Positions 467 to 33,367 of a stretch of 33,545 nucleotides of DNA are shown here, one piece after another. Under the pieces are notes generated by a model. That model was given only the letters and a program-made list of their open reading frames with translations, ran no database searches and was not told where the DNA came from. A program made the position numbers and the translations under genes. The DNA is taken from the NCBI GenBank assembly GCA_021838635.1, contig JAKCDC010000031.1, positions 1 to 33,545 on the forward strand, read 5' to 3'. The number at the start of each line of letters is the position of its first letter. Position 1 is the stretch's first letter. This DNA is from Pseudomonadota bacterium. Its GTDB lineage: Bacteria; Pseudomonadota; Gammaproteobacteria; Steroidobacterales; Steroidobacteraceae.

Positions 467-2485
467 TCAGAATCCAAACGGACTCCACGTCAATCCCACG
501 AACACCCCGAACGGCATGGTGTTGTAGCTGTAGGCCACCTGATAGCGTTTATCGAACAGGTTCTCGACACGCGCGTTCCACCGAAGATCTCGGCCCATTG
601 GACCATCCGCGGTCAGACCGACCGTGGTGTAGCTCCCCAGGGTCACGGGAATTGCGGTAAACGACGGCGTATATGCCACATCCGGTCGCGGCCCCGTGTA
701 ATGAATGACCAGTCCAGTCGTTACCCGCCCAAAGTCGTACCCCAGAGTAAGGTTGGCCATGCTCCGAGCGAGACGTTGTAACGTGGGATTACCGAGTTCG
801 CTCAGCGCGACCGGCTGCTGCAAGGTCACGTTCGCGTCATAACGCCATTGCCGCCAGCCGCCCCGTCCAGAAAGCTCCACGCCACGCGTACGCGTGCGTG
901 CGATATTTTGGAACTGGGTCATTCCGCTTGGCGTCGAACCGAAGCCCCACATGTCGTTACCCGTGGTCTGGAACACCGTCACGCGCACCGTCGCCGGGAC
1001 CCCTGACCACTGCAGCGCTGCCTGCACGGTGTGCGCCGATTCCGGCTTCAGCAGCGGATTCGCCGCCCAATACGGATTGCTGTAGTAGAGATAACCCAGT
1101 GGCGGCACATTGAAAGCGCTCGAATAGCTGGCGATCGCCTCGAACCCATACCCCAACTGCCGGCCATAACCTGCGTAGAAGGTGTTTTTGTTGCTTGCAT
1201 AACCGCCAAACTGGTCATGCCGCAGGTTCAACTGAATTTCATTGCCGGCAAATGAACCATTCAAACCGGCAAAGGCCGCAGTGACGTTGCGCGAGGCACT
1301 CGGAATGCCACCCTGACCACTGCTCGTGACCGACTGGTGCTGATAGGTCGCACCACCGGTCAGTATCCAGACCTTGGAAAGGCGGACGACGTTGCGCCAG
1401 AGTAAATCGAGGTGCGTCGATCGATACATCGCGGGGTAGCTGCCAAGATTGATGTTCTCAGTGCGTTGGCGAGACACACTGACGTGCGACGTCCAGATGG
1501 AGGCGATTCGATTATTGCTGAACAGCTGAAAGAGCGTCTCCTTCGTACGTCCTCCAGCGGTTTCGTTGTCGTAGCTATAACGCCCATCGCTCAAAAACGC
1601 ACGCACACCGAGCTGCTCGTGAGCGCCAAAGCCCTGCACGACCGATCCGTTGGCGGTCACATTGTGATATCCATCGGAGTGGTTCGTGGTCACCAGCGTG
1701 CTTTGCGCTGGGTTGATGGACGGAATGCCCGCGGTCGTGAAACGACTCACGCCGATTTGTAGGCGCGTATTGTGAATCCGGCCGCTGGCATTGGCCGAAA
1801 CCGTCACCGTGTTGCGGCTGCCTGCCGCCATGGAAAGGTGTACTTGGGGTTTGGAGCGTCCTTCGCGCGTGGTAATCAGAACGACGCCCCCAATGGCGCC
1901 CGAACCATAGATCGCTGATACGTTGCCGTGGATGACCTCGATACGCTCAATCTGATCGGTAGTAAGGTTCTCGAGATAATCGCCGCCACCAGATGCGTCT
2001 TCAGCGGTAAGCGGCACGCCATCGAGCAGGATCAAGACCCCCGCGTCCGTGCCACCGAATCCCTCTAGGTAGATGGTCGAGGTGTGTCCGGGTCCGCCGT
2101 TCGAGGTGATTTGAACGCCGGCCACGCGTTGGAGCAGCGTCGCGAGGTTTTTCACACCGCTCTGCTCGATCTGGGTGCGGGTGATTACGCTCACGCTAGG
2201 CAACGTCTGTGCCAAAGGTTGAGGAAATGTGGCCGCCGAGATGACCACGGTCGACACGTTGGTAGGCGCAAGTGCCGCCATCGCCGGTGACGCGATCATC
2301 ATGCAGCACAATAGCGCCGTCCATCCCAGGCGCTCCGAGATCCGGACCCACCGGGACTTGGCTGCCCGACTGACGCGCATCACGCGACGCGAACAGGCTC
2401 GCACATCGTGCGAACTGGTCACCTCCAGGGTGCGCTCGCCCGGTACGCGCCGAAAAAGATCGGCCAAAGTGAGGATCATTTGCAT
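467..2485 (-). CDS. btuB: TonB-dependent outer membrane receptor, BtuB-like (cobalamin uptake)
   Basis: Outer membrane beta-barrel receptor predicted to take up cobalamin or a related corrinoid with TonB energy. A TonB-box-like STVVISA is followed by a plug domain (LLDGVPL, IERIEVIHGNVSAIYGSGAIGGVV) and an alternating barrel ending in WSPFGF, a typical C-terminal aromatic signature. The substrate is assigned from the cobalamin riboswitch upstream at about 2699-2876. The frame is open to an ATG at 2551; I chose ATG 2483-2485 because GGAG lies 7 nt before it. A third ATG at 2380 starts just before a normal signal peptide (WTALLCCMMIASPAMA) but has no visible ribosome site. The chosen start gives 672 aa and an unusually long region before the signal peptide. 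E. coli BtuB is about 614 aa. Confidence 0.85.
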   Translation of the reverse strand: MQMILTLADLFRRVPGERTLEVTSSHDVRACSRRVMRVSRAAKSRWVRISERLGWTALLCCMMIASPAMAALAPTNVSTVVISAATFPQPLAQTLPSVSVITRTQIEQSGVKNLATLLQRVAGVQITSNGGPGHTSTIYLEGFGGTDAGVLILLDGVPLTAEDASGGGDYLENLTTDQIERIEVIHGNVSAIYGSGAIGGVVLITTREGRSKPQVHLSMAAGSRNTVTVSANASGRIHNTRLQIGVSRFTTAGIPSINPAQSTLVTTNHSDGYHNVTANGSVVQGFGAHEQLGVRAFLSDGRYSYDNETAGGRTKETLFQLFSNNRIASIWTSHVSVSRQRTENINLGSYPAMYRSTHLDLLWRNVVRLSKVWILTGGATYQHQSVTSSGQGGIPSASRNVTAAFAGLNGSFAGNEIQLNLRHDQFGGYASNKNTFYAGYGRQLGYGFEAIASYSSAFNVPPLGYLYYSNPYWAANPLLKPESAHTVQAALQWSGVPATVRVTVFQTTGNDMWGFGSTPSGMTQFQNIARTRTRGVELSGRGGWRQWRYDANVTLQQPVALSELGNPTLQRLARSMANLTLGYDFGRVTTGLVIHYTGPRPDVAYTPSFTAIPVTLGSYTTVGLTADGPMGRDLRWNARVENLFDKRYQVAYSYNTMPFGVFVGLTWSPFGF

Positions 2486-2698
2486 CGCAGTGCTCCGTTC
2501 ATGTGCCCCATCTGGGGTGTAGTAACGACAGCCGATGCGAAGCACGCGCATGCAAACCGTGACTGCGGGGCTTTCGCTCCGCTCACACGGCTGAATTCGG
2601 TGGTGATGGATGTCACCCCACGGCCCCGCATCGGTCTCAATGTCACCGCTGCGAATGACCGCTCCGTGTGGTACTCCCCGCCCACCGGTTGGGTGACC

Positions 2699-7965: not shown

Positions 7966-9165
7966 ATGCTCAGCCCTGGACAAGCGGATGAACTGATCGG
8001 CCGGCACTTGACGTGCCTGCCGACGGTTTCCCTGCCCTTGTTGCAGTGCGCCGGAGCGGTGCTGCGCGAGGACATTCACGCCGAGCGCGATCAGCCGCCC
8101 TTCGACCGGGTCGCCATGGACGGCATCGCACTGCAGAGTGCGGCCGTCGCGGCCGGGCAACGCCATTTCCAGATCCAGGCGACCCAGGCCGCCGGCGAAC
8201 CCGCCCTGACGCTCGCCTCGGCGCAGCACTGCATCGAAGTCATGACCGGCACGCCCTTGCCGGTGGACTGCGATTGCGTCGTGCCCGTCGAGCAAATCGG
8301 GGTCGCCGACGGGCACGCGACTCTGATGGAAGGCCTCACGGTGGCCGCCGGTCAGCACCTGCACCACCGCGGCACGGATGCGCGCCAAGGTGAACTGCTG
8401 CTGTGTGCCGGGATGCGCCTTGGCGCCCCGCAGATCGCAGTCGTGGCGGCCGCCGGCAAGGCCAGGGTGCGGGTGGCCAGCCAACCGATGGTCGCAGTGC
8501 TCTCCACCGGCAATGAACTCATCGAGCCGGGTGAGCCGATTCTTGACCATCAGGTGCGCCGCTCGAACGCGTACGCCATAGCCGCGGCGCTCGAACTGCA
8601 CGGTTACCCCCGAATCGCGACGGAACATCTGCGCGATGATGCGGCTGAGCTCGAGTCTCGGCTGAAATTTCACCTCGAGACTCACGATGTGCTGGTGCTG
8701 AGTGGCGGGGTTTCCATGGGCAAACTCGATCTGGTGCCGCAGGCGCTGGAGTCGCTCGGCGTGCGCTGTGTCTTCCACAAGGTCGCGCAACGGCCCGGCA
8801 AGCCGCTCTGGTTCGGCATGGCGCCCTCCGGTGCCGCCGTGCTTGCGCTGCCAGGCAATCCGGTTTCGACCGCGGTGTGCGTCTCGCGCTATGTGCTCCC
8901 GGCACTGGCCGCGGCTCAAGGGCTGCGCTGCGGTCCTGTGGAGCAGATCTCGCTGGCCGAGCCGGTTACCGTAACGGTACCGCTGACATTTTTCCTCCCC
9001 GTCCAACGCGTTACCGACGCGCATGGCTGCTGCCGGGCGATGCCGAAGCGGACCCACGGCTCGGGGGATTTCACTTCGCTTGCAGCGACCGACGGGTTTG
9101 TGCAGCTGCCGCCCGGGCCGAATACCTATCCGGCCGGATTCGTCGCGCCGCTGTACCGCTGGTAG
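7966..9165 (+). CDS. moeA: Molybdopterin molybdenumtransferase MoeA
   Basis: 399 aa cytosolic enzyme that inserts molybdate into adenylylated molybdopterin to form molybdenum cofactor. Family signatures are present along the length: PFDRVAMDG (about 45-53) with the Asp that binds metal/Mg in E. coli MoeA, EVMTGTPLP (91-99), the MPT-binding core VAVLSTGNELIEPGE (176-190), VLSGGVSMGKLD (244-255), RPGKPLWFG (276-284) and LPGNPVST (295-302). Length matches the family (about 400). It is the first of five same-strand Moco genes; the gap to moaA is 47 bp. Its adenylylated substrate needs a MogA/MoaB-type enzyme, which is not encoded in this window. Confidence 0.95.
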   Translation: MLSPGQADELIGRHLTCLPTVSLPLLQCAGAVLREDIHAERDQPPFDRVAMDGIALQSAAVAAGQRHFQIQATQAAGEPALTLASAQHCIEVMTGTPLPVDCDCVVPVEQIGVADGHATLMEGLTVAAGQHLHHRGTDARQGELLLCAGMRLGAPQIAVVAAAGKARVRVASQPMVAVLSTGNELIEPGEPILDHQVRRSNAYAIAAALELHGYPRIATEHLRDDAAELESRLKFHLETHDVLVLSGGVSMGKLDLVPQALESLGVRCVFHKVAQRPGKPLWFGMAPSGAAVLALPGNPVSTAVCVSRYVLPALAAAQGLRCGPVEQISLAEPVTVTVPLTFFLPVQRVTDAHGCCRAMPKRTHGSGDFTSLAATDGFVQLPPGPNTYPAGFVAPLYRW

Positions 9166-9212
9166 CCCTCCGGAGGATGGCGCTCGGCGGCCGCCAGTGG
9201 TAAACGAGTGCG

Positions 9213-10262
9213 ATGACTGTCCGCGATTCCCTGAGCGAGCGCTCACCGACCGGACTGCGCGACCAGCGCGGCAGGGTGCTGCAGGATCTGCGCATCTCGG
9301 TGATGGACCGCTGCAACTTCCGTTGCCCCTACTGCATGCCGCGGGAGACCTTCCACGAGACCTATCGGTTTCTGGCCTCGCGCGAGCGATTGTCGTTCGA
9401 AGAAATCGTGCGCGTGGCGCGGCTGCTGGTGCGCCTCGGGGTGCGCAAGCTGCGCCTGACCGGCGGGGAGCCGCTGCTGCGACCGAACCTCACCGATCTG
9501 ATCGGCGATCTCACCGGAATTGCGGGTATCGAGGATGTCGCGCTGACCACCAATGGGACACTCCTGGCGAAGTACGCATGCGAGCTGCACGCGGCCGGAC
9601 TGAAGCGCGTCACGGTGAGTCTCGACAGTCTCGAACCCGAGGTCTTCCTGCGCATGAGCGGCGGCTTCGGCGGACTGGAAGAGACGCTAAACGGCATCGA
9701 GCAGGCACGCCGGGTCGGTCTCGGCCCCATTAAAATCAACGCGGTGATCCAGCGCGGCGTGAACGACCACACCGTGCTCGGGCTGCTCGAGCGCTTCCGG
9801 GGCACGGGTGTCATCGTGCGCTTCATCGAATACATGGACGTCGGTAACCGCAACCACTGGCAGCCAGAGGCGGTAGTGCCCTCGCGCGAACTGCTCGCGC
9901 GCATCGGCGCCCGCTGGCCGCTCGAGCCGCGCCAGCCGGCCTACCGCGGCGAGGTGGCCGAGCGTTACGTCTTCGCTGACGGCGCCGGGGAGATCGGATT
10001 CATCTCCTCGGTGACCCAGCCGTTCTGCGGGAACTGCTCGCGCGCGCGGCTGTCCTCCGACGGGGTGCTGTACACCTGCCTATTCGCGACGCACGGCACA
10101 GCACTGCGCGACCGCCTGCGCAGCGGCGCCTGCGACGACGAACTGCTCGAGGCGCTGCGCAGCGTATGGCGTGAGCGCACCGATAACTACAGCGAGCAGC
10201 GCCAGGGTCCGCTCGCGGACGACGGCGCGCACAAGGTCGAAATGTTCTACATTGGTGGCTGA
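9213..10262 (+). CDS. moaA: GTP 3',8-cyclase MoaA
   Basis: 349 aa radical-SAM enzyme for the first step of Moco synthesis, GTP to 3',8-cyclo-H2GTP. The N-terminal radical-SAM cluster motif is [12 protein letters not shown] (Cys34, Cys38, Cys41), followed by LTGGEP (83-87) for SAM binding. The second, substrate-binding cluster is supplied by Cys272, Cys275 and Cys289 in [19 protein letters not shown]. The protein ends in Gly-Gly (FYIGG), as MoaA proteins do and as is needed in the family for catalysis. Its stop overlaps the moaC start (TGATG), implying translational coupling in the operon. Confidence 0.97.
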
Positions 10263-10756
10263 TGACGGCGAAGAGACTCTCTCATCTGGACGCGCGCAAC
10301 CGCCCAACGATGGTCGATGTGGGTGCCAAGCAGATCACACTGCGCGAGGCCACGGCCGAGGCGCTCGTGCAGCTGCCCGCACCGGTGGCGAGCGTACTGC
10401 GCCGCAGCGGGCACCGCACCCGCAAGGGTCCGGTGTTCGACACAGCGATCGTCGCCGGAGTCATGGCCGCCAAACGCACCCATGAACTGATCCCCTTCTG
10501 CCATCCGCTCGGGCTTGAGCACTGCTCGGTGGACATCGAACAGCAGCCGCGCGGCCAGATCCGTATCCGCTGCCGCGTCGCGATACACCATCGGACGGGT
10601 GTCGAGATGGAGGCGCTGACCGGTGCCACGGTAGCCGCCCTGACGGTGTACGACATGTGCAAGGCGCTCTCGCACGACATTCAGATCATGAGCGTGCGCC
10701 TGCTCGAGAAGTCCGGTGGGAAACGTCCCTTCCGCCGCACGGGAGCCACCCTGTGA
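10262..10756 (+). CDS. moaC: Cyclic pyranopterin monophosphate synthase MoaC
   Basis: 164 aa. It converts the MoaA product to cyclic pyranopterin monophosphate, working as a homohexamer in characterised homologues. Conserved segments include [16 protein letters not shown] (15-30), [20 protein letters not shown] with the family's catalytic-region Lys, LIPFCHPL, and [20 protein letters not shown] followed by the second key Lys region (CKALSHD). The C-terminus [13 protein letters not shown] is family-like. The ATG overlaps the moaA stop by one base, and its TGA stop overlaps the GTG start of the next gene (GTGA). Confidence 0.96.
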
Positions 10757-11586
10757 CCACAGCGCCGTTGTACGGTCTGGTGCTCTCCGGCGGGCGCAGC
10801 CAGCGCATGCACCGCGACAAGGCCGCTCTGGCCTACCGGGGCGTGAGCCAGCTTGAGCGGACGATGGCGCTGCTTGAAGGCCGGGTCGAACGCGCGTTTG
10901 TCTCAGTGCGCGCCGAGCAGCGCGACGATCCGCTGCGCGCCCGCTACGCCCTCATTGCCGATCAGATCGCCGACCTCGGGCCGGCCGGCGGCATCCTCGC
11001 CGCCCAGGCGAGCGCGCCCGATGTTGCCTGGCTCGTGCTCGCCTGCGATTTGCCGTTTCTCGATGCGCACACCCTGGACCACCTGATCGGCGCACGCCAG
11101 CCGAACCGCTCGGCCACCGCCTACCGCTCGAGCCACGATGGGCTGCCCGAGCCGCTGTGCGCGATCTACGAGCCGGCCAGTCACGCCGCTCTGACCGCAG
11201 CCGTCGTCGCGGGACGCCACTGTCCGCGCAAGTTCCTGCTCTCGGCCGACACCGCACTGCTCGAGCCGCCCTCGCCGCAGGCGCTGGAGAACATCAACAC
11301 CCCGGAACAATTCACGCAGGCGACTGCCGCGCTCGGGGCCCCCGACCGGCAGGTCACCGTGCAGTACTATGCGCTGCTGCGCGAACAGGCCGGCCGCGCG
11401 CAGGAATCGCTACGCACCACGGCAGCCACCGCCGGGGCGCTGTACCAGGAGCTTCGCCAGCGCCACCCCTTCACCCTACCGCCGGAGCTGCTGCGCGTGG
11501 CGGTGAATGCCGAGTTCGCCGAGTGGAGCGCGCCGCTTACCGAGGGCGACACGGTCGTGTTCATCCCGCCGGTGGCAGGTGGCTAG
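10753..11586 (+). CDS. MobA-MoaD fusion: Moco guanylyltransferase plus MPT synthase sulfur carrier
   Basis: 277 aa from GTG 10753, which overlaps the moaC stop as GTGA; the in-frame ATG at 10657 lies inside moaC and is rejected. Residues 1 to about 195 are a MobA nucleotidyltransferase: [14 protein letters not shown] (11-24), LGPAGG (75-80), ACDLPFL (97-103, metal Asp99), and LENINTPE (178-185). The usual Gly after RM is His20. Residues about 199-277 are a MoaD ubiquitin-like domain ([15 protein letters not shown] to FIPPVAGG). It ends exactly in the Gly-Gly that must be free for adenylation and thiocarboxylation, so the fusion order keeps MoaD usable. MobA adds GMP to make the guanylyl cofactor; MoaD carries sulfur to MoaE. 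No linker proteolysis site is evident. Confidence 0.9.
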
Positions 11587-11629
11587 CGGCCCGCTCTGAC
11601 CGCCGCCTGAGCATCGCGCGGACATCCGT

Positions 11630-13213
11630 ATGAGTCTGTTCCAATTCAGCACCAAACCGTTGGATTCCGCCGCGCTGCGCGGCCTGCTGGCGTCCCCTGC
11701 CGCCGGTGGCTACGCCAGCTTCGAAGGGTGGGTCCGCAACCACAACGAGGGCCGCGAGGTACACCGGCTGGAATACGAGGCTTTCGAGGGGCTCGCCGTG
11801 AAGGAGGGCGAGCGCATCGTCACTGAAGCGCTGCAGCGCTTCGGCGTGGAGCGTGCCGCGTGCGTGCACCGTGTGGGCGCGCTCGAAATCGGCGAGCTCG
11901 CCGTGTGGGTCGGGGTCTCGGCGCGGCACCGCCACGAGGCATTCCTCGCCTGCCGGTACATCATTGATGCGGTGAAACACCGCGTACCGATCTGGAAGAA
12001 GGAACACTACCGCGACGGTGACTCCGGGTGGGTCAACTGCGAGCGCTGTGCCGCGCCACCCGATGCGCCCGTGAAGGCGCATAGGCACGAGGCCTGTGCG
12101 CCGCATACGCATCATTCTGAACACGCGCACCCGCCGCGGGGTAATGCACCCCTCGCACCGCGACCCGATTATTCCAGACAAATGGTGCTGCCGGAGGTCG
12201 GGGGAGCAGGTCAAGCACGGCTCGCGCACTCCGCGGCGCTGATCGTCGGCTGCGGCGGACTCGGCGTGCCGGCGATGAGCTATCTGGCGGCCGCCGGGAT
12301 CGGTCGGCTCGGCCTGGTGGATGCCGATCTGCTCGAGGCCTCGAACCTGCATCGCCAACCGCTCTATTCGCTGGCCGACGTCGGTCGCCCGAAGGTCGAA
12401 CTCGCCGCCGAGCGGCTACGCGCGCTGAACCCAACGCTCGACCTGCGGATCCATCGGACCCGCCTGGGTACGGAGAATGTCGCGGCGCTGATCGACGGCT
12501 ACGACGTGATTCTCGACTGCACGGACACTATCGCCAGCAAGCTCGCGTTGAATGACGCCTGCGTGCAGAGTGGCCAGGCGGCGGTATTCGCGAGCGTTTA
12601 CCAGTACGAGGGGCAGCTGCAGGTGCTGCGGCCAGGCGGCGGGCCCTGTCTGCGCTGCGTCTGGCCTGAGACGGTCCGGGACGGCCTGGTGGGCGTATGT
12701 GCCGAGGCCGGCGTGCTCGGACCGGTGCCCGGCATACTCGGCACGCTGCAGGCATTGGAAGCGTTGAAGCTGCTGCTCGGGCTGCCCGGTCAGCTCGCCG
12801 ACGCGGTACTGATGGTGGACCTGACCACGCTCACCGTCACCCGGGTGCGCGCGCACCGTGCCGCGGACTGCCCTCAGCATGCGCGCCGCGGCGCGGCGCA
12901 CGATGTAGAACTTCCGGACATCGAACTTGCGTTTGACTCGCTGCAGGCGGCGCATGCGGCCGGCTTTACGCTCATCGACATTCGCGAGCCGACCGAGCGG
13001 GCGCGCGCGCCCCTGGCGCACTCTGCCGTCGGCGCCGTGCCGTTGGCGGAGCTGCTCTCCGGCGGACGGGCGCTGCCGCAGCGCTGTCTGCTGGTCTGTG
13101 CCGCCGGCATCCGCAGTCTGGCTGCCGCGCGCGAACTTCGCTCGCGCGGTCACGCCGAGGTGTATTCGCTGCGCGGCGGACTCGCTGCGCTTGAGCGGAC
13201 GGCTACGGCCTGA
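11630..13213 (+). CDS. MoaE-MoeB-rhodanese triple fusion (MPT synthase catalytic subunit, MoaD-activating enzyme, sulfurtransferase)
   Basis: 527 aa, three domains. Residues 1 to about 148 are MoaE, with the active-site segment [13 protein letters not shown] (Lys116 and Lys123 match the two catalytic lysines of E. coli MoaE). A His-rich linker follows (about 151-168, [17 protein letters not shown]). Residues about 179-420 are a MoeB/ThiF adenylyltransferase: [14 protein letters not shown]-binding GCGGLG (207-212), VDAD, SNLHRQ, DCTD (297-300), and zinc-site Cys340/Cys343 with a second half CPQH (414-417) where CxxC is usual. Residues about 430-527 are a rhodanese domain with active-site loop CAAGIR (Cys490, Arg495). 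One chain thus holds MoaD's adenylating enzyme, a sulfur donor and MoaD's target. It ends 11 bp inside the convergent proA. Confidence 0.93.
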
Positions 13214-14480
13214 TCTGCCCGGCGCCGCGTACGACGTACTTGTAGCTGGTGAGCTGCTCGACGCCCACCGGGCCGCGTGCATGAAACCGGTCGGTCGAAA
13301 TGCCGATCTCCGCCCCCATGCCGAACTCCCCGCCGTCGGCGAACTGCGTCGAGGCGTTGTGCAGCACGATGGCACTATCGACGTGCTGCAGAAAGCGCTC
13401 AGCTGTGGCCTCGTTTTCGGTCACGATCGACTCGGTGTGCGCCGAACCATAGCGGGCAATGTGTGCGATCGCCCCGTCCACGCCATCGACAACCCGCGCC
13501 GCGATGATGGCATCGAGATACTCGGTGTACCAGTCGTCCTCGCTGGCCGGACGCACGCGCGGATCGGCGCCCTGGATCGTGGCATCCCCGCGGACCTCGC
13601 AGCCGGCATCGAGTAGGGCGCGCACCACCGGCACCATGTGCGTAGCCACACAGGCCCGGTCGATGAGCAGAGTCTCGGCCGCCCCGCAGATGCCGGTGCG
13701 GCGCATCTTCGCGTTGAGCGCAATGGTCTCGGCCATACGTACATCCGCATCGCGATCGACGTAGACGTGGCAGTTCCCATCGAGATGCCCAATCACCGGC
13801 ACCCGCGCTTCCTTCTGCACACGCTCGACGAGACTGCGACCACCGCGCGGCACGATCACATCAAGATAGTCCGTCATGCAGGCAAGCAGATAGCCGACGG
13901 CCGCGCGCTCCTGCGTGGGCACCCGCTGGATACACTCGGCGGGCAACCCGGCGCCGCGCAGGCCCTCGGTGAGACAGTCATGCACCGCGGCATTCGAGCG
14001 CTGGCTCTCCGTCCCGCCCCGCAGGATCACGGCATTGCCGGACTTCATGCACAGCGCACCGGCATCCGCGGTGACGTTCGGCCGGCTCTCATAGATGATT
14101 CCGATCACGCCAAGCGGCACGCGCACGCGCTGGATCCTCAGGCCATTCGGTCGCAGCCATTCGGCTGCGACCGTGCCCACCGGATCGGGCAGGGCCGCGA
14201 CCGCCGCAACTCCGGCGGCCATTGCCTCGATCCGCCCCTCATCGAGCGCCAGCCGATCAATGAGTGCCGTGCCGAGACCGGCGGCCCGCGCAGCGGCCAC
14301 ATCGTGCGCATTGGCCTCGAGAATCCGTGCGCGGTGCGCGCGAATCGCTGCCGCGGCGCGCATCAGCGCATCATTTTTTATCTCGGTGGTAGCGCGAGCG
14401 AGGACTGCAGCGGCGTTCAGCGCCCCGCGGCCAAGCCCCTCCATCAGTTCGCCCAAAACGCTGTCGTTATGCGGATTCAT
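13203..14480 (-). CDS. proA: Gamma-glutamyl phosphate reductase (glutamate-5-semialdehyde dehydrogenase) ProA
   Basis: 425 aa. NADPH-dependent reduction of gamma-glutamyl phosphate to glutamate-5-semialdehyde, second step of proline synthesis. It shows [34 protein letters not shown] for cofactor binding, and the catalytic Cys region [15 protein letters not shown]. The C-terminal part has [21 protein letters not shown], a strong ProA signature. Length agrees with the family (about 417). Its start overlaps the end of proB by 14 nt, so the pair is one transcription unit. Its stop lies inside the end of the convergent Moco fusion gene. Confidence 0.96.
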
Positions 14481-15624
14481 AGGCGAAGGACGGTAGCAGG
14501 ACTAGATCGTCCCGATGGATCAGCTCATCGCGACCGCGGAATCCGAGGATTGCCGGGATCTGTGCCGAATGCCGGCCGATGATCTGCAGCGCATCCGCAT
14601 CCGAATACGCAATGATGCCCCGGGCCACTTCCATGCCCTCGGGGGTGAGCACGCTGACAGTATCACCGCGCTCAAAGCGGCCGCGGGCAGCGGTCACGCC
14701 GGCCGGCAACAGACTGCTGCCGGCGAGCAGCGCGCGCAATGCCCCGTGATCGACCGTCACGGCGCCCGCCGGACGCAACGTGCCGGCGATCCACTGCTTG
14801 CGGGCGGCCGCTGGGCTCGCCGCGGGCAGGAACCACGTGCAGCGCTCCCCTTCTTCCAGGCGCCGCACCGGATGTAGCGGTCGGCCCGCCGCGACGCACA
14901 TGTGGCATCCCGCCGCAACCGCGATACGCGCCGCCATCAGCTTCGTGGCCATACCGCCAGTGCCGAACTCCGAGGCCGACCCTCCGCCCATGGCCTCGAT
15001 CTCAGGCGTCAATTGCGCCACCTCGTGAATGAATCGCGCCTCGGGGTCCCGGTTCGGATCGGCGCTGTAGAGTCCGTCGACGTCCGACAGCAGCACCAGA
15101 CAGTCGGCCGCCGTCATCTGTGCCACGCGCGCAGCCAGGCGGTCGTTATCGCCGTAGCGGATCTCCGCCGTCGCCACGGTGTCGTTCTCGTTGATGACCG
15201 GCAGGGCGCCGAGAGACAGCAGCGTCTCGAGCGTGGCGCGCGCATTGAGATACCGTCGGCGCCGTTCACTGTCCTCAAGCGTGAGCAGAACCTGGGCAAC
15301 CGTCACCTGACGGCGCTCAAGCATCTCCCGGTAGGCGTGCGCGAGACGGATCTGCCCGACGGCGGCGGCGGCCTGGCTTTCCTCCAGGCGCAGCGGCCCC
15401 TTGGCGAGCGACAATTCGCGCCGGCCGAGTGCAACGGCCCCGGAGGAGACCAAGATCACCTGCTGCCCGCGCTCACGCAGACGCAAGAGATCCTCGACGA
15501 GCGTCTCGAGCCAGGCCTGATTGATCCGCCCGGTCTGCGTCTCGACCAGCAACGCCGAACCGACCTTGACCACGACGCGGCGCGCGGTCGCCAGAGGGGA
15601 GCGGGTTGCGGATTTAACGGACAT
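14467..15624 (-). CDS. proB: Glutamate 5-kinase ProB with C-terminal PUA domain
   Basis: 385 aa from ATG 15622-15624. It phosphorylates L-glutamate in the first, usually proline-inhibited, step of proline synthesis. The kinase domain shows [56 protein letters not shown] and [10 protein letters not shown]. The last roughly 110 residues are a PUA domain ([31 protein letters not shown]). An earlier in-frame ATG at 15648 exists, but a TATAGT -10-like hexamer lies just before the chosen ATG with 6 nt between, and would fall inside the longer version. Overlaps proA by 14 nt. Confidence 0.93.
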
Positions 15625-15630
15625 GAGAAA

Positions 15631-15636
15631 ACTATA
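15631..15636 (-). promoter_or_regulatory. Candidate -10 box giving a leaderless proB mRNA
   Basis: TATAGT on the minus strand with only 6 nt to the proB ATG, so a start about 7 nt downstream would coincide with the start codon. There is no ribosome-binding site before that ATG. No convincing -35 hexamer is visible at 16-18 bp. Confidence 0.35.
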
Positions 15637-15738
15637 CGTGGCGCGCATGATCCGCGCGAGTACAAACCGAGCTGCGCGTTGCTCCCAGCCAGCGCAACCC
15701 CTAAACTTGCGCGGCCGCCAAGTCAGAGGATCCCATCG

Positions 15739-30721: not shown

Positions 30722-33367
30722 ATGAGAGCGAACAAGAACAAGGCGTCCCGTACGGGCGTCGGTCCGACGCGACGCGCGTCCTTGAGCGCAACGGCGCGCA
30801 GCGCGACAAACAGCAGTATCGCGGCTGTGGTCGCCGGTATCCTCGGCACCGCCGCAGGCCTGAGCCTGGCACACGCGCAGAACGCGCCCACCACGGCTTC
30901 GCAGCCGACCATCAATGCCGGAAACATTCAGACCTCACAGAACCTGCAGGAAGTCGTCGTCACGGCAACCGCGACGCACGTGCGGCTGTTGAACGCCAGC
31001 TATAACGTGGTGGCCGCCGATCGCCAGTTGATCCAGGAAGCGAATCCGACGAGCTCTGCGGACATCCTGAAGCTCTCCCCGGGCATTTGGCCGGAAGCGA
31101 CCGGCGGTCAGACCGGCGCGAATATTGAGGTGGCGGGATTCCCGAGCGGTGGCGATGCACCGTTCTTCACCAACATGATCGAGGGCATGCCCCTCTACGG
31201 CATGCCCTCGCTGTCGTTCATGGACTCAAGTTCGCTGTTCCGGCTCGATGACACCATCAAGCGGGTGGAAATCGTGCAGGGCGGACCGTCGGCGATCTTC
31301 GGACCAGGGCAGATGGGCGCAACCGCCAACTACATCCTGCGCACCGGATCGGCCAAACCCCGCGGCGAAGTGATGGTGACCTACGGCAACCAGGGCCTGT
31401 GGCGCACCGACATGTTCTACGGCTTCCAGATCGCCCCGGGTTGGTACGGCAGCGTCGGGGGCTTCTACCGTGTATCGAAGGGCGTGCGCGCCCCGCAGTT
31501 CCCGGCCGAAAACGGCGGCCAGTTCACCGCCACTCTGAAGCACGACCTTCGCGGTGGTTCGGTGGTGTTCTGGACCCGCGTGCTCGATGACAAGAACCAG
31601 TTCATGGCGCCCTTCCCGCTCATCCAGAACGCGAGCGGCTCGTACTCAGGGTACCCGGGCTTCAATCCGCTCACCGGCACCTACGGCAGCTACGCGATCC
31701 AAAACGTGACCTTACCGAACCCGGCGGGTGGCTTCGAGAGCGCGAACCTCGCCAATGGCCGCGGCGGCAAACTCTATTTCCTCGGCAGCAACTACAACCA
31801 GACGATCAACGGCTGGACATTCCACAACGGCTTCCTGATCGACGGCGGTGGACTCGACACCAACGCACTGTTCTCCGGCACCAATCCGCGGCCGCTCAGC
31901 TACTTCCTGTACGGCTGCCAGGTGGCCGAACCGACCGGTTTCTGCAACGGCACGACCGCCATCGACAAGAACAACCTTGGCCCCAACGGCCAGGGCCTCT
32001 CACCGAACCTCGGCATTTCGGCGACTTACGCCGGCTCCGGCAATCCGGTTCCGATGAGCCAGAGCGTGATCTCGCAGGGCTGGTGGTACATCCAGAAGTC
32101 GCTGCAGAACATCACCGACGAGTTCCGCGTCAGCCACAGCCTGTTCAAGGGCGACATGCTGACCGCTGGCGTCTACCTGGCCCGTTACAGCATGAACGAC
32201 AACTGGTCGCTCGGTAACCAGATGCTGATGACGAACACCCAGAACGCCACCCCGGTCGTGCTCAACTACGTCCAGGGCGGACAGCAAACCAATCTGACCA
32301 GCAGCCAAGGGTTCTGGAACGAGAACAACAACTACAACATTCTTGAGCACGGCGATGCAACCAATATCGCCGGGTACTTCTCGGACCAATGGCGGCATGG
32401 CCCATGGTTGATCGACCTCGGGGCACGCCTGGAAAACATCAACGCCCGCCAGCGCACCTGTAATACCTCGCCGCAGATGCTCTCCGGACCCAACAATCCG
32501 TGGGACAGCGCAGTTCCGGTCTGCAATGGCACGTGGACTTACCTGCACTACGTGCGCACGCGACCGACTTTCACCGGCGGCGTGAACTACGACTTCTCCT
32601 CGCACATGAGCGCCTACATCCGCATCAACAACGGCGTGCACTTCGACGATTTCGACAACGGCATCCGTGGCACCACCAACGGAAACTTCGGACCTCTGGA
32701 GACGATTCACAACTACGAAATCGGGTACAAATACGAGAACGCGTGGATGTTCGCCGACATCAGCGCGTACGAGCGTATTTTCTACGGACTGCAGAGCGAG
32801 GCCACCAACGCACAGGGCATCGGCATTCCCGGCGACATCGTCAGCTACGGCGCCCGGACGCACGGCATCGACTTCAACGGTTATGTTGAGCCGTTCAAGC
32901 ACGCCACCATCCGGGTCGTGGGTGACTGGATGCAGGGCCACTATAACGGAGCGGCAAGCTGCGAACCGTACTTCACAATCAACGGTTCAGCAGCCTGCGC
33001 GGCGATCAACGGCGCTCCGCTGCAGCGTCAGCCGAACATCCAGGTCCGCGTCACGCCGAGTTACGCCATTCCGACGAACTGGGGCGTGGTGTCGGCCTGG
33101 GTCACCTACGAGTACGTCGGCAAGCGGTATGAGGATACCTTCGGCCTGCAGCCGCTCGGGACCTACAGCGAAATCGGCGGCGGTGTCGTGGCCGACGTCG
33201 GAAGGCACTGGGAGTTTGCCGTGCGCGGCACTAACCTGACCAACACGATCGCCCTCACCGAGGGCAATGCACGTGAAGCAGGCGTCTCACTCGGCGTGAA
33301 CAACGTCCTGCTGGGACGGGCACTGTTCGGCCGGGAAATCAACTTCAGCGCGCGATACAAGTTCTAA
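30722..33367 (+). CDS. TonB-dependent outer membrane receptor, probably iron-siderophore
   Basis: 881 aa. AGGAGG stands 7 nt before ATG, the strongest ribosome site in the window. A long basic N-region leads into a signal peptide (IAAVVAGILGTAAGLSLAHA, cut near residue 52). Then come a TonB-box-like LQEVVVTATAT and a plug domain (SADILKLSPGIW, FTNMIEGMPLYGMP, IKRVEIVQGGPSAIFGPGQMGATANYIL). The large barrel has many Trp/Tyr/Asn-rich strands and ends FSARYKF with the terminal Phe typical of outer membrane proteins. Extracellular loops contain Cys pairs (CQVAEPTGFC, CNTS...PVC, CEPYF...AC). A Fur-box-like site upstream hints at an iron ligand; sequence alone does not fix it. A strong terminator follows directly. 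Confidence 0.9.
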   Translation: MRANKNKASRTGVGPTRRASLSATARSATNSSIAAVVAGILGTAAGLSLAHAQNAPTTASQPTINAGNIQTSQNLQEVVVTATATHVRLLNASYNVVAADRQLIQEANPTSSADILKLSPGIWPEATGGQTGANIEVAGFPSGGDAPFFTNMIEGMPLYGMPSLSFMDSSSLFRLDDTIKRVEIVQGGPSAIFGPGQMGATANYILRTGSAKPRGEVMVTYGNQGLWRTDMFYGFQIAPGWYGSVGGFYRVSKGVRAPQFPAENGGQFTATLKHDLRGGSVVFWTRVLDDKNQFMAPFPLIQNASGSYSGYPGFNPLTGTYGSYAIQNVTLPNPAGGFESANLANGRGGKLYFLGSNYNQTINGWTFHNGFLIDGGGLDTNALFSGTNPRPLSYFLYGCQVAEPTGFCNGTTAIDKNNLGPNGQGLSPNLGISATYAGSGNPVPMSQSVISQGWWYIQKSLQNITDEFRVSHSLFKGDMLTAGVYLARYSMNDNWSLGNQMLMTNTQNATPVVLNYVQGGQQTNLTSSQGFWNENNNYNILEHGDATNIAGYFSDQWRHGPWLIDLGARLENINARQRTCNTSPQMLSGPNNPWDSAVPVCNGTWTYLHYVRTRPTFTGGVNYDFSSHMSAYIRINNGVHFDDFDNGIRGTTNGNFGPLETIHNYEIGYKYENAWMFADISAYERIFYGLQSEATNAQGIGIPGDIVSYGARTHGIDFNGYVEPFKHATIRVVGDWMQGHYNGAASCEPYFTINGSAACAAINGAPLQRQPNIQVRVTPSYAIPTNWGVVSAWVTYEYVGKRYEDTFGLQPLGTYSEIGGGVVADVGRHWEFAVRGTNLTNTIALTEGNAREAGVSLGVNNVLLGRALFGREINFSARYKF

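Follow-up and report, generated by a model that had tools for sequence, protein, structure and literature searches.

One open reading frame in a gammaproteobacterium of the family Steroidobacteraceae encodes a complete MoaE (the large subunit of molybdopterin synthase), a MoeB/ThiF adenylyltransferase and a rhodanese domain, and we judge it likely, with a probability of about 0.78, that MoaD is both adenylated and sulfurated by this one chain, which then makes molybdopterin with it; the chain might also channel the carrier between its own domains. The architecture is widespread and apparently undescribed in the literature searched. The frame runs unbroken through positions 11630-13213 (+) of the window, meaning here the whole stretch of 33,545 nucleotides that was analysed. 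Its parts are as follows.

11630..13213, + strand: MoaE-MoeB-rhodanese fusion gene, open frame with an ATG start, 527 aa (Pfam; AF2 model)
11651..11983, + strand: MoaE domain, residues 8-118 (Pfam PF02391, 122.9 bits against a cut-off of 23.4)
11975-11977, + strand: K116 of the MoaE part, inside the Pfam match
11996-11998, + strand: K123 of the MoaE part, just past the end of the Pfam match
12038..12049, + strand: CERC motif closing MoaE, residues 137-140 (C137 in 73/74 relatives, C140 in 53/74)
12050..12157, + strand: His-rich linker, residues 141-176, 7 His in 36 (143-168 with pLDDT below 50, mostly unstructured in the model)
12170..12874, + strand: MoeB/ThiF adenylyltransferase domain, residues 181-415 (Pfam ThiF, 241.6 bits)
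12956..13192, + strand: rhodanese domain, residues 443-521 (Pfam PF00581, 25.9 bits; PDB 1wv9)
13097-13099, + strand: Cys490, predicted rhodanese active site in the loop CAAGIR (sequence motif)

The fusion protein and its neighbourhood

The first-pass annotation had placed a MoaE with lysines 116 and 123, a MoeB core with GCGGLG and DCTD, and a rhodanese loop with Cys490 in one chain, and each was recovered where it had been put. K116 and K123 we take to be the catalytic lysines, after K119 and K126 of E. coli MoaE, and with a domain score over the curated cut-off they place the N-terminal part in MoaE. The adenylyltransferase part carries GCGGLG at 207, DCTD at 296, a CxxC at 340/343 (CLRC at 340), C357 and a CxxH at 414/417. 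At 25.9 bits the rhodanese stands barely above its Pfam cut-off of 22.2; its membership is firmer than this score, because the CxxGxR loop is kept in 72/74 aligned relatives and because residues 431-527, taken by themselves, find solved rhodaneses (1wv9 at E 1.2e-8). The AF2 model has a mean pLDDT of 88.9 and a pTM of 0.59, and so the placement of the domains relative to each other is uncertain. Its MoeB part has the fold of ThiF and MoeB from E. coli, in a whole-model structure comparison that covers mostly residues 176-421, the MoaE and rhodanese assignments resting on sequence. By E-value the best Foldseek match is Uba4 (6yub_A), the long match having an rmsd of 13.2 with the domains of the fusion placed differently or unsurely.

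As in MoeBR, MOCS3 and Uba4, a ThiF core with the first CxxC is followed by a C-terminal rhodanese with a six-residue CxxGxR cysteine loop, and ThiF, Uba4 and MoeB all have a cysteine aligned to C357. Unlike those proteins the fusion has MoaE in front, and its second metal-ligand pair is a CxxH (12869-12880), whereas the available part of PMC3227635 gives the adenylyltransferase domain of MoeBR two CxxC motifs. Among 74 aligned relatives the first CxxC is present in all, and the second pair reads CxxH in 30, CxxC in 18 and neither in 26. The same part of PMC3227635 describes MoeZR with NYRD as first motif and the second mostly missing, unlike the fusion and its relatives. The fusion also scores below the NCBIfam MoeB equivalog cut-offs (PRK08762, 290.3 against 449 bits; PRK07411, 226.3 against 633; TIGR02355, 177.4 against 376.55), and judged by its motifs it is MoeBR-like and not a strict MoeBR member. 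Compared with MoaE proper it has the whole domain with both lysines invariant, but ends that domain in CERC and a His-rich stretch and continues into MoeB. Pfam found nothing of the ThiS family within the 527 aa (E<=0.001), which sets the chain apart from MoaX, the MoaD-MoaE fusion of Mycobacterium tuberculosis described in the available part of PMC4326299.

The gene is the last of a run moeA-moaA-moaC-mobA/moaD-[moaE-moeB-rhodanese] at 7966-13213, and MoaD is the C-terminal part of a MobA-MoaD fusion encoded directly upstream, its GG end free.

7966..9165, + strand: moeA (Pfam MoeA_N, MoCF_biosynth, MoeA_C)
9213..10262, + strand: moaA (TIGR02666 over cut-off)
10262..10756, + strand: moaC (Pfam; TIGR00581 over cut-off)
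10753..11586, + strand: MobA-MoaD fusion with a GlyGly end (Pfam NTP_transf_3 and ThiS)

The MobA-MoaD chain likely starts at the GTG at 10753, the longest frame beginning at 10657, and its AF2 model has a pLDDT of 92.9 and a pTM of 0.77. Neither this second fusion nor the CxxC and His-rich linker was mentioned in the first-pass annotation. On the opposite strand proA and a proB-like kinase gene (AA_kinase, PUA) at 13203-15648 (-) converge on the fusion gene, the 3' end of proA sharing 11 bases with its end, and TonB-dependent receptor-like proteins with a Plug domain lie at both ends of the window (467-2551, -; 30722-33367, +).

The genome is a draft of 3.47 Mb in 118 contigs, 96.5% complete. 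It gave one MoaE match, inside the fusion, and two ThiS/MoaD family matches, one being MobA-MoaD and the other lying in a thi run (by Pfam ThiC, an FAD oxidoreductase, ThiG, ThiF and Phos_pyr_kin) whose ThiF has no rhodanese. That ThiF and C94 (E 2.2e-4, the rhodanese end only, with one stop) are the further weak relatives of the fusion in the draft, and beyond them no second Moco-type MoeB was found in it. Since the sole MoaE and the sole Moco-type MoaD found in the draft are these two fusions, molybdopterin should be made by both chains. A MogA/MoaB-type protein was not found in the draft at its 96.5% completeness, MoCF_biosynth being matched in MoeA only.

Spread, conservation and precedent

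From 575 confirmed relatives the best 80 were taken, and with the first 22 loci of the genome set they make 102 loci in all. MoaE and MoeB share one open frame in 95/102, a figure that is no frequency since the loci were chosen for likeness to the query. Of the remaining seven, L002 and L003 are the weak own-genome matches, and in the other five MoaE and MoeB occupy separate, adjacent frames. The fused loci reduce to 88 distinct ones, counting L091, whose MoeB part continues in another frame, and a few cut by contig ends; L091, with its MoeB part broken into a second frame, is from a Krumholzibacteriota MAG. A mapping of the taxa, which the first-pass annotation had proposed, puts the 75 fused loci of the 102 that have record names in 12 phyla, 53 in Pseudomonadota and 22 in eleven others, many being MAGs, so lone odd phylum placements may be mis-binning. 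Named isolates with the fusion are found in Dyella, Rhodanobacter and Frateuria, along with Lysobacter silvestris and Povalibacter uvarum.

Many genomes of the window's family carry the fusion, and few do so in even samples of its class and phylum. By hand count it is present in 113/217 family genomes, of which 110 have a match that starts in MoaE and extends to model position 467 or beyond (of 519) and three are cut by contig ends, and in 16/217 only the MoeB-rhodanese part was matched. The even class sample gave a full-length match in at least 2/369 genomes, both of the window's family (four candidates scored per genome), and a partial match at E<=1e-60 in 300/369; the even phylum sample gave a full-length match in at least 2/398 (E<=1e-120, three candidates scored per genome). 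Twenty-four plasmid records match part of the query, and none among these partial matches covers 80% of it.

K116 and K123 are kept in all 88 distinct fused relatives, D299 in 87, C340 and C343 in 86, C357 in 85 and C490 in 83 (four gaps and one Ser); Pfam finds MoaE and ThiF in 74/74 aligned relatives and the rhodanese in 57/74. A MoaD ending in GG lies no more than 400 bases upstream in 86/88 distinct loci, the other two being a contig without room upstream and L070, whose moaD is some 6 kb downstream. At least 32 of the 86 have MobA and MoaD in a single frame, contig ends cutting some, and the MobA-MoaD frames end in GG in 49/49 distinct cases among the fetched loci (from the best 80 of 575 relatives and others).

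Several pairings of the same pathway partners are on record. Available passages of PMC1779556, PMC2948915, PMC11237513, PMC6147048 and PMC2700814 hold MoaD-MoaE, MoaD-MoeB(R), MoaC-MoaE and other fusions, those from archaea being MoaD-MoaE, MoaD-MoeB, MoaD-MoeBR and MoaC-MoaE (PMC11237513 among the sources), and MoaE-MoeB is not among the fusions in these passages. MoaX and the archaeal fusions thus join the same partners but in another pairing, and MoaX needs cleavage. In the plant Moco complex of Cnx5, Cnx6, Cnx7 and Cnx1 the same activities are held near one another non-covalently, according to the available part of PMC5694649. The literature search found no description of MoaE-MoeB(-rhodanese), in keeping with the first-pass view that the type had not been described, though two corynebacterial comparative-genomics papers containing the string 'MoeBR-MoaE' could mention one and architectures given only in figures escape a text search. 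A text search likewise found no paper on MobA-MoaD or MoaD-MobA. The first-pass annotation had also allowed for an architecture already common and characterised; common it largely is, given the family count and the 12 phyla, and of its characterisation no report was found.

The linker and the history of fused and bare MoaE

Across the 88 distinct fusions the linker is 23.9% His (555/2324), compared with 2.7% in the remainder of those proteins; in 63 of them it is richer in His than every equal-length stretch outside it, and in 25 it is not. HH or HxH occurs in the linker of 74/88 and a CxxC follows WV in 62/88, and short linkers with few His are seen in Kiritimatiellota, Opitutae and others. 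Of the 19 family loci read with a bare MoaE, 17 keep the CxxC and 15 have at least three His following it, and so the CxxC/His tail belongs to this branch of MoaE and not to the join; this, like the short linkers, speaks against a function bound up with the fusion. Five solved MoaE chains were aligned: two extend to position 137 and have no Cys there, and the remaining three come to an end 2 to 4 residues from it. The CxxC and His-rich linker may possibly bind metal and, as a tether, is a possible metal link in the dithiolene-forming step, a role for metal here being a guess. A bolder proposal, which we regard as unlikely, has the join as a working metal site, in which CERC and a mobile His-rich tether would hold zinc or copper at the dithiolene site, shielding or trapping nascent molybdopterin, while the tether would pass the MobA-borne MoaD between MoeB and MoaE. 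Were it true, molybdopterin would be made, metal-capped and passed on within two fused chains. Copper and Cnx1G appear together in a reference title in the available part of PMC11434336; a search on MoaE, histidine-rich and molybdopterin synthase found no paper.

A hand count over 100 genomes of the family gave 57 with the fusion, 34 with bare MoaE, two with adjacent frames, six without MoaE and one with the MoeB part only. Nineteen of the 34 bare loci were read (L106-L124), MoaD directly precedes MoaE in all 19, and MoeB was not matched within the stretch read around them. In eleven, moeA (in part), moaA, moaC, mobA and moaD precede MoaE, nine having MobA-MoaD in one frame; L123 and L124 have no MobA match, and in six (L106, L109, L113, L114, L117 and L121) only part of the run was seen or matched. 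A quick MoeB tree has a branch (support 94) that separates 85 fused and 6 adjacent copies from 20 stand-alone MoeB(-R) together with the own ThiF. The MoaE tree (109 of 114 rows, the long branches L137, L087, L095, L098 and L073 being left out) has the bare MoaE scattered among the fused ones. A single clade holding all 85 fused MoaE is rejected on it (p-AU 0.0033), and so is one holding 17 bare MoaE of the family (p-AU 3.9e-5), L123 and L124 being in the tree but outside this group of 17. With an alignment of 140 columns the number of changes between fused and bare is uncertain (nine or seven, by tree). Taken together the two trees suggest, as the simplest history, one fused MoeB lineage whose MoeB-rhodanese half was later lost several times, independent gains being a less likely alternative. 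The five loci with MoaE and MoeB-rhodanese in adjacent frames (L040, L044, L050, L061 and L125) group together in each of the two domain trees and probably go back to a single splitting of the fused gene.

A further MoeB(-R) match (E<1e-50) was counted in 30/34 genomes with bare MoaE, in 28 of these reaching the rhodanese, against 8/57 with the fusion (Fisher p 1.3e-12, a test that ignores kinship). Allowing for kinship leaves two independent pairs on well-supported branches, for which significance is impossible and the pattern is never contradicted. This fits a MoeB-rhodanese half that acts as the activator of MoaD and is replaced from elsewhere when lost.

A proposed sulfur relay on one chain

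Three intact domains with their key residues, together with the adjoining moaD in 86/88 loci, make a one-chain sulfur relay on MoaD the natural reading. Cys490 of the rhodanese would take a persulfide from a cysteine desulfurase, and MoaD, offered on the C-terminus of MobA with its GG end free, would be adenylated and thiocarboxylated, as expected from the families. It may then dock on the MoaE domain of that chain or of one beside it, where its sulfur would turn cPMP into molybdopterin, the dithiolene forming on MoaE as in that family. The flexible linker may keep spent MoaD near the recharging site, with a faster shuttle as a conjectured benefit. The first-pass annotation had inferred that MoaD could be handled without leaving one protein. 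The intact domains and the adjoining gene support the relay, but not that wording, since MoaD itself sits on another chain, at the C-terminus of MobA. Against the relay, the repeated apparent loss of the MoeB-rhodanese half implies that the fused state is dispensable, and in plants Cnx5 (MoeB-R) and Cnx6 (MoaE) show no direct interaction in vivo in the available part of PMC5694649, so closeness is not needed elsewhere.

A fusion of convenience, in which independent domains gain only co-expression and a fixed ratio without channelling, is a serious contender to which we would give somewhat less than even odds. Fused and bare forms alternate within one family, linker length seems free (an estimated 2 to 91 aa), and MoaE and MoeB lie in separate adjacent frames in 5/102 loci; yet the record names place fused loci in 12 phyla, and a branch of support 94 in the quick tree sets the MoeB domains from fused and adjacent genes together on one side. 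Cutting of the chain after synthesis into MoaE and MoeB-rhodanese appears distinctly improbable. It would recall MoaX, which needs cutting into MoaD and MoaE to work (available part of PMC4326299), and the linker is disordered in the AF2 model, but there is no C-terminus to free, the GG of MoaD already ending another protein, and by eye the linkers have no common motif beyond CxxC and His runs; the full-length chain has an estimated mass of about 56 kDa. That the main work of the MoeB-rhodanese half is for another carrier (ThiS, a CysO-like protein or tRNA thiolation), and that it rides on MoaE, we consider very unlikely, since the gene closes a moeA-moaA-moaC-mobA/moaD run in a genome with its own thi genes and ThiF, even if the mycobacterial MoeZR serves both MoaD and CysO (available part of PMC3227635). 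An assembly error or frameshift joining three genes, which a draft of 118 contigs might suggest and which the first-pass annotation had itself raised, is ruled out by the 95/102 fused loci, including L072 of Dyella jiangningensis, from a record whose title says complete genome, and L046 of the isolate Povalibacter uvarum.

The one-chain relay would bring the activation, sulfuration and use of MoaD into one natural chain, in cultivable bacteria. The same family supplies matched natural versions without the MoeB-rhodanese half, and so a direct handover of MoaD from MoeB to MoaE is testable.
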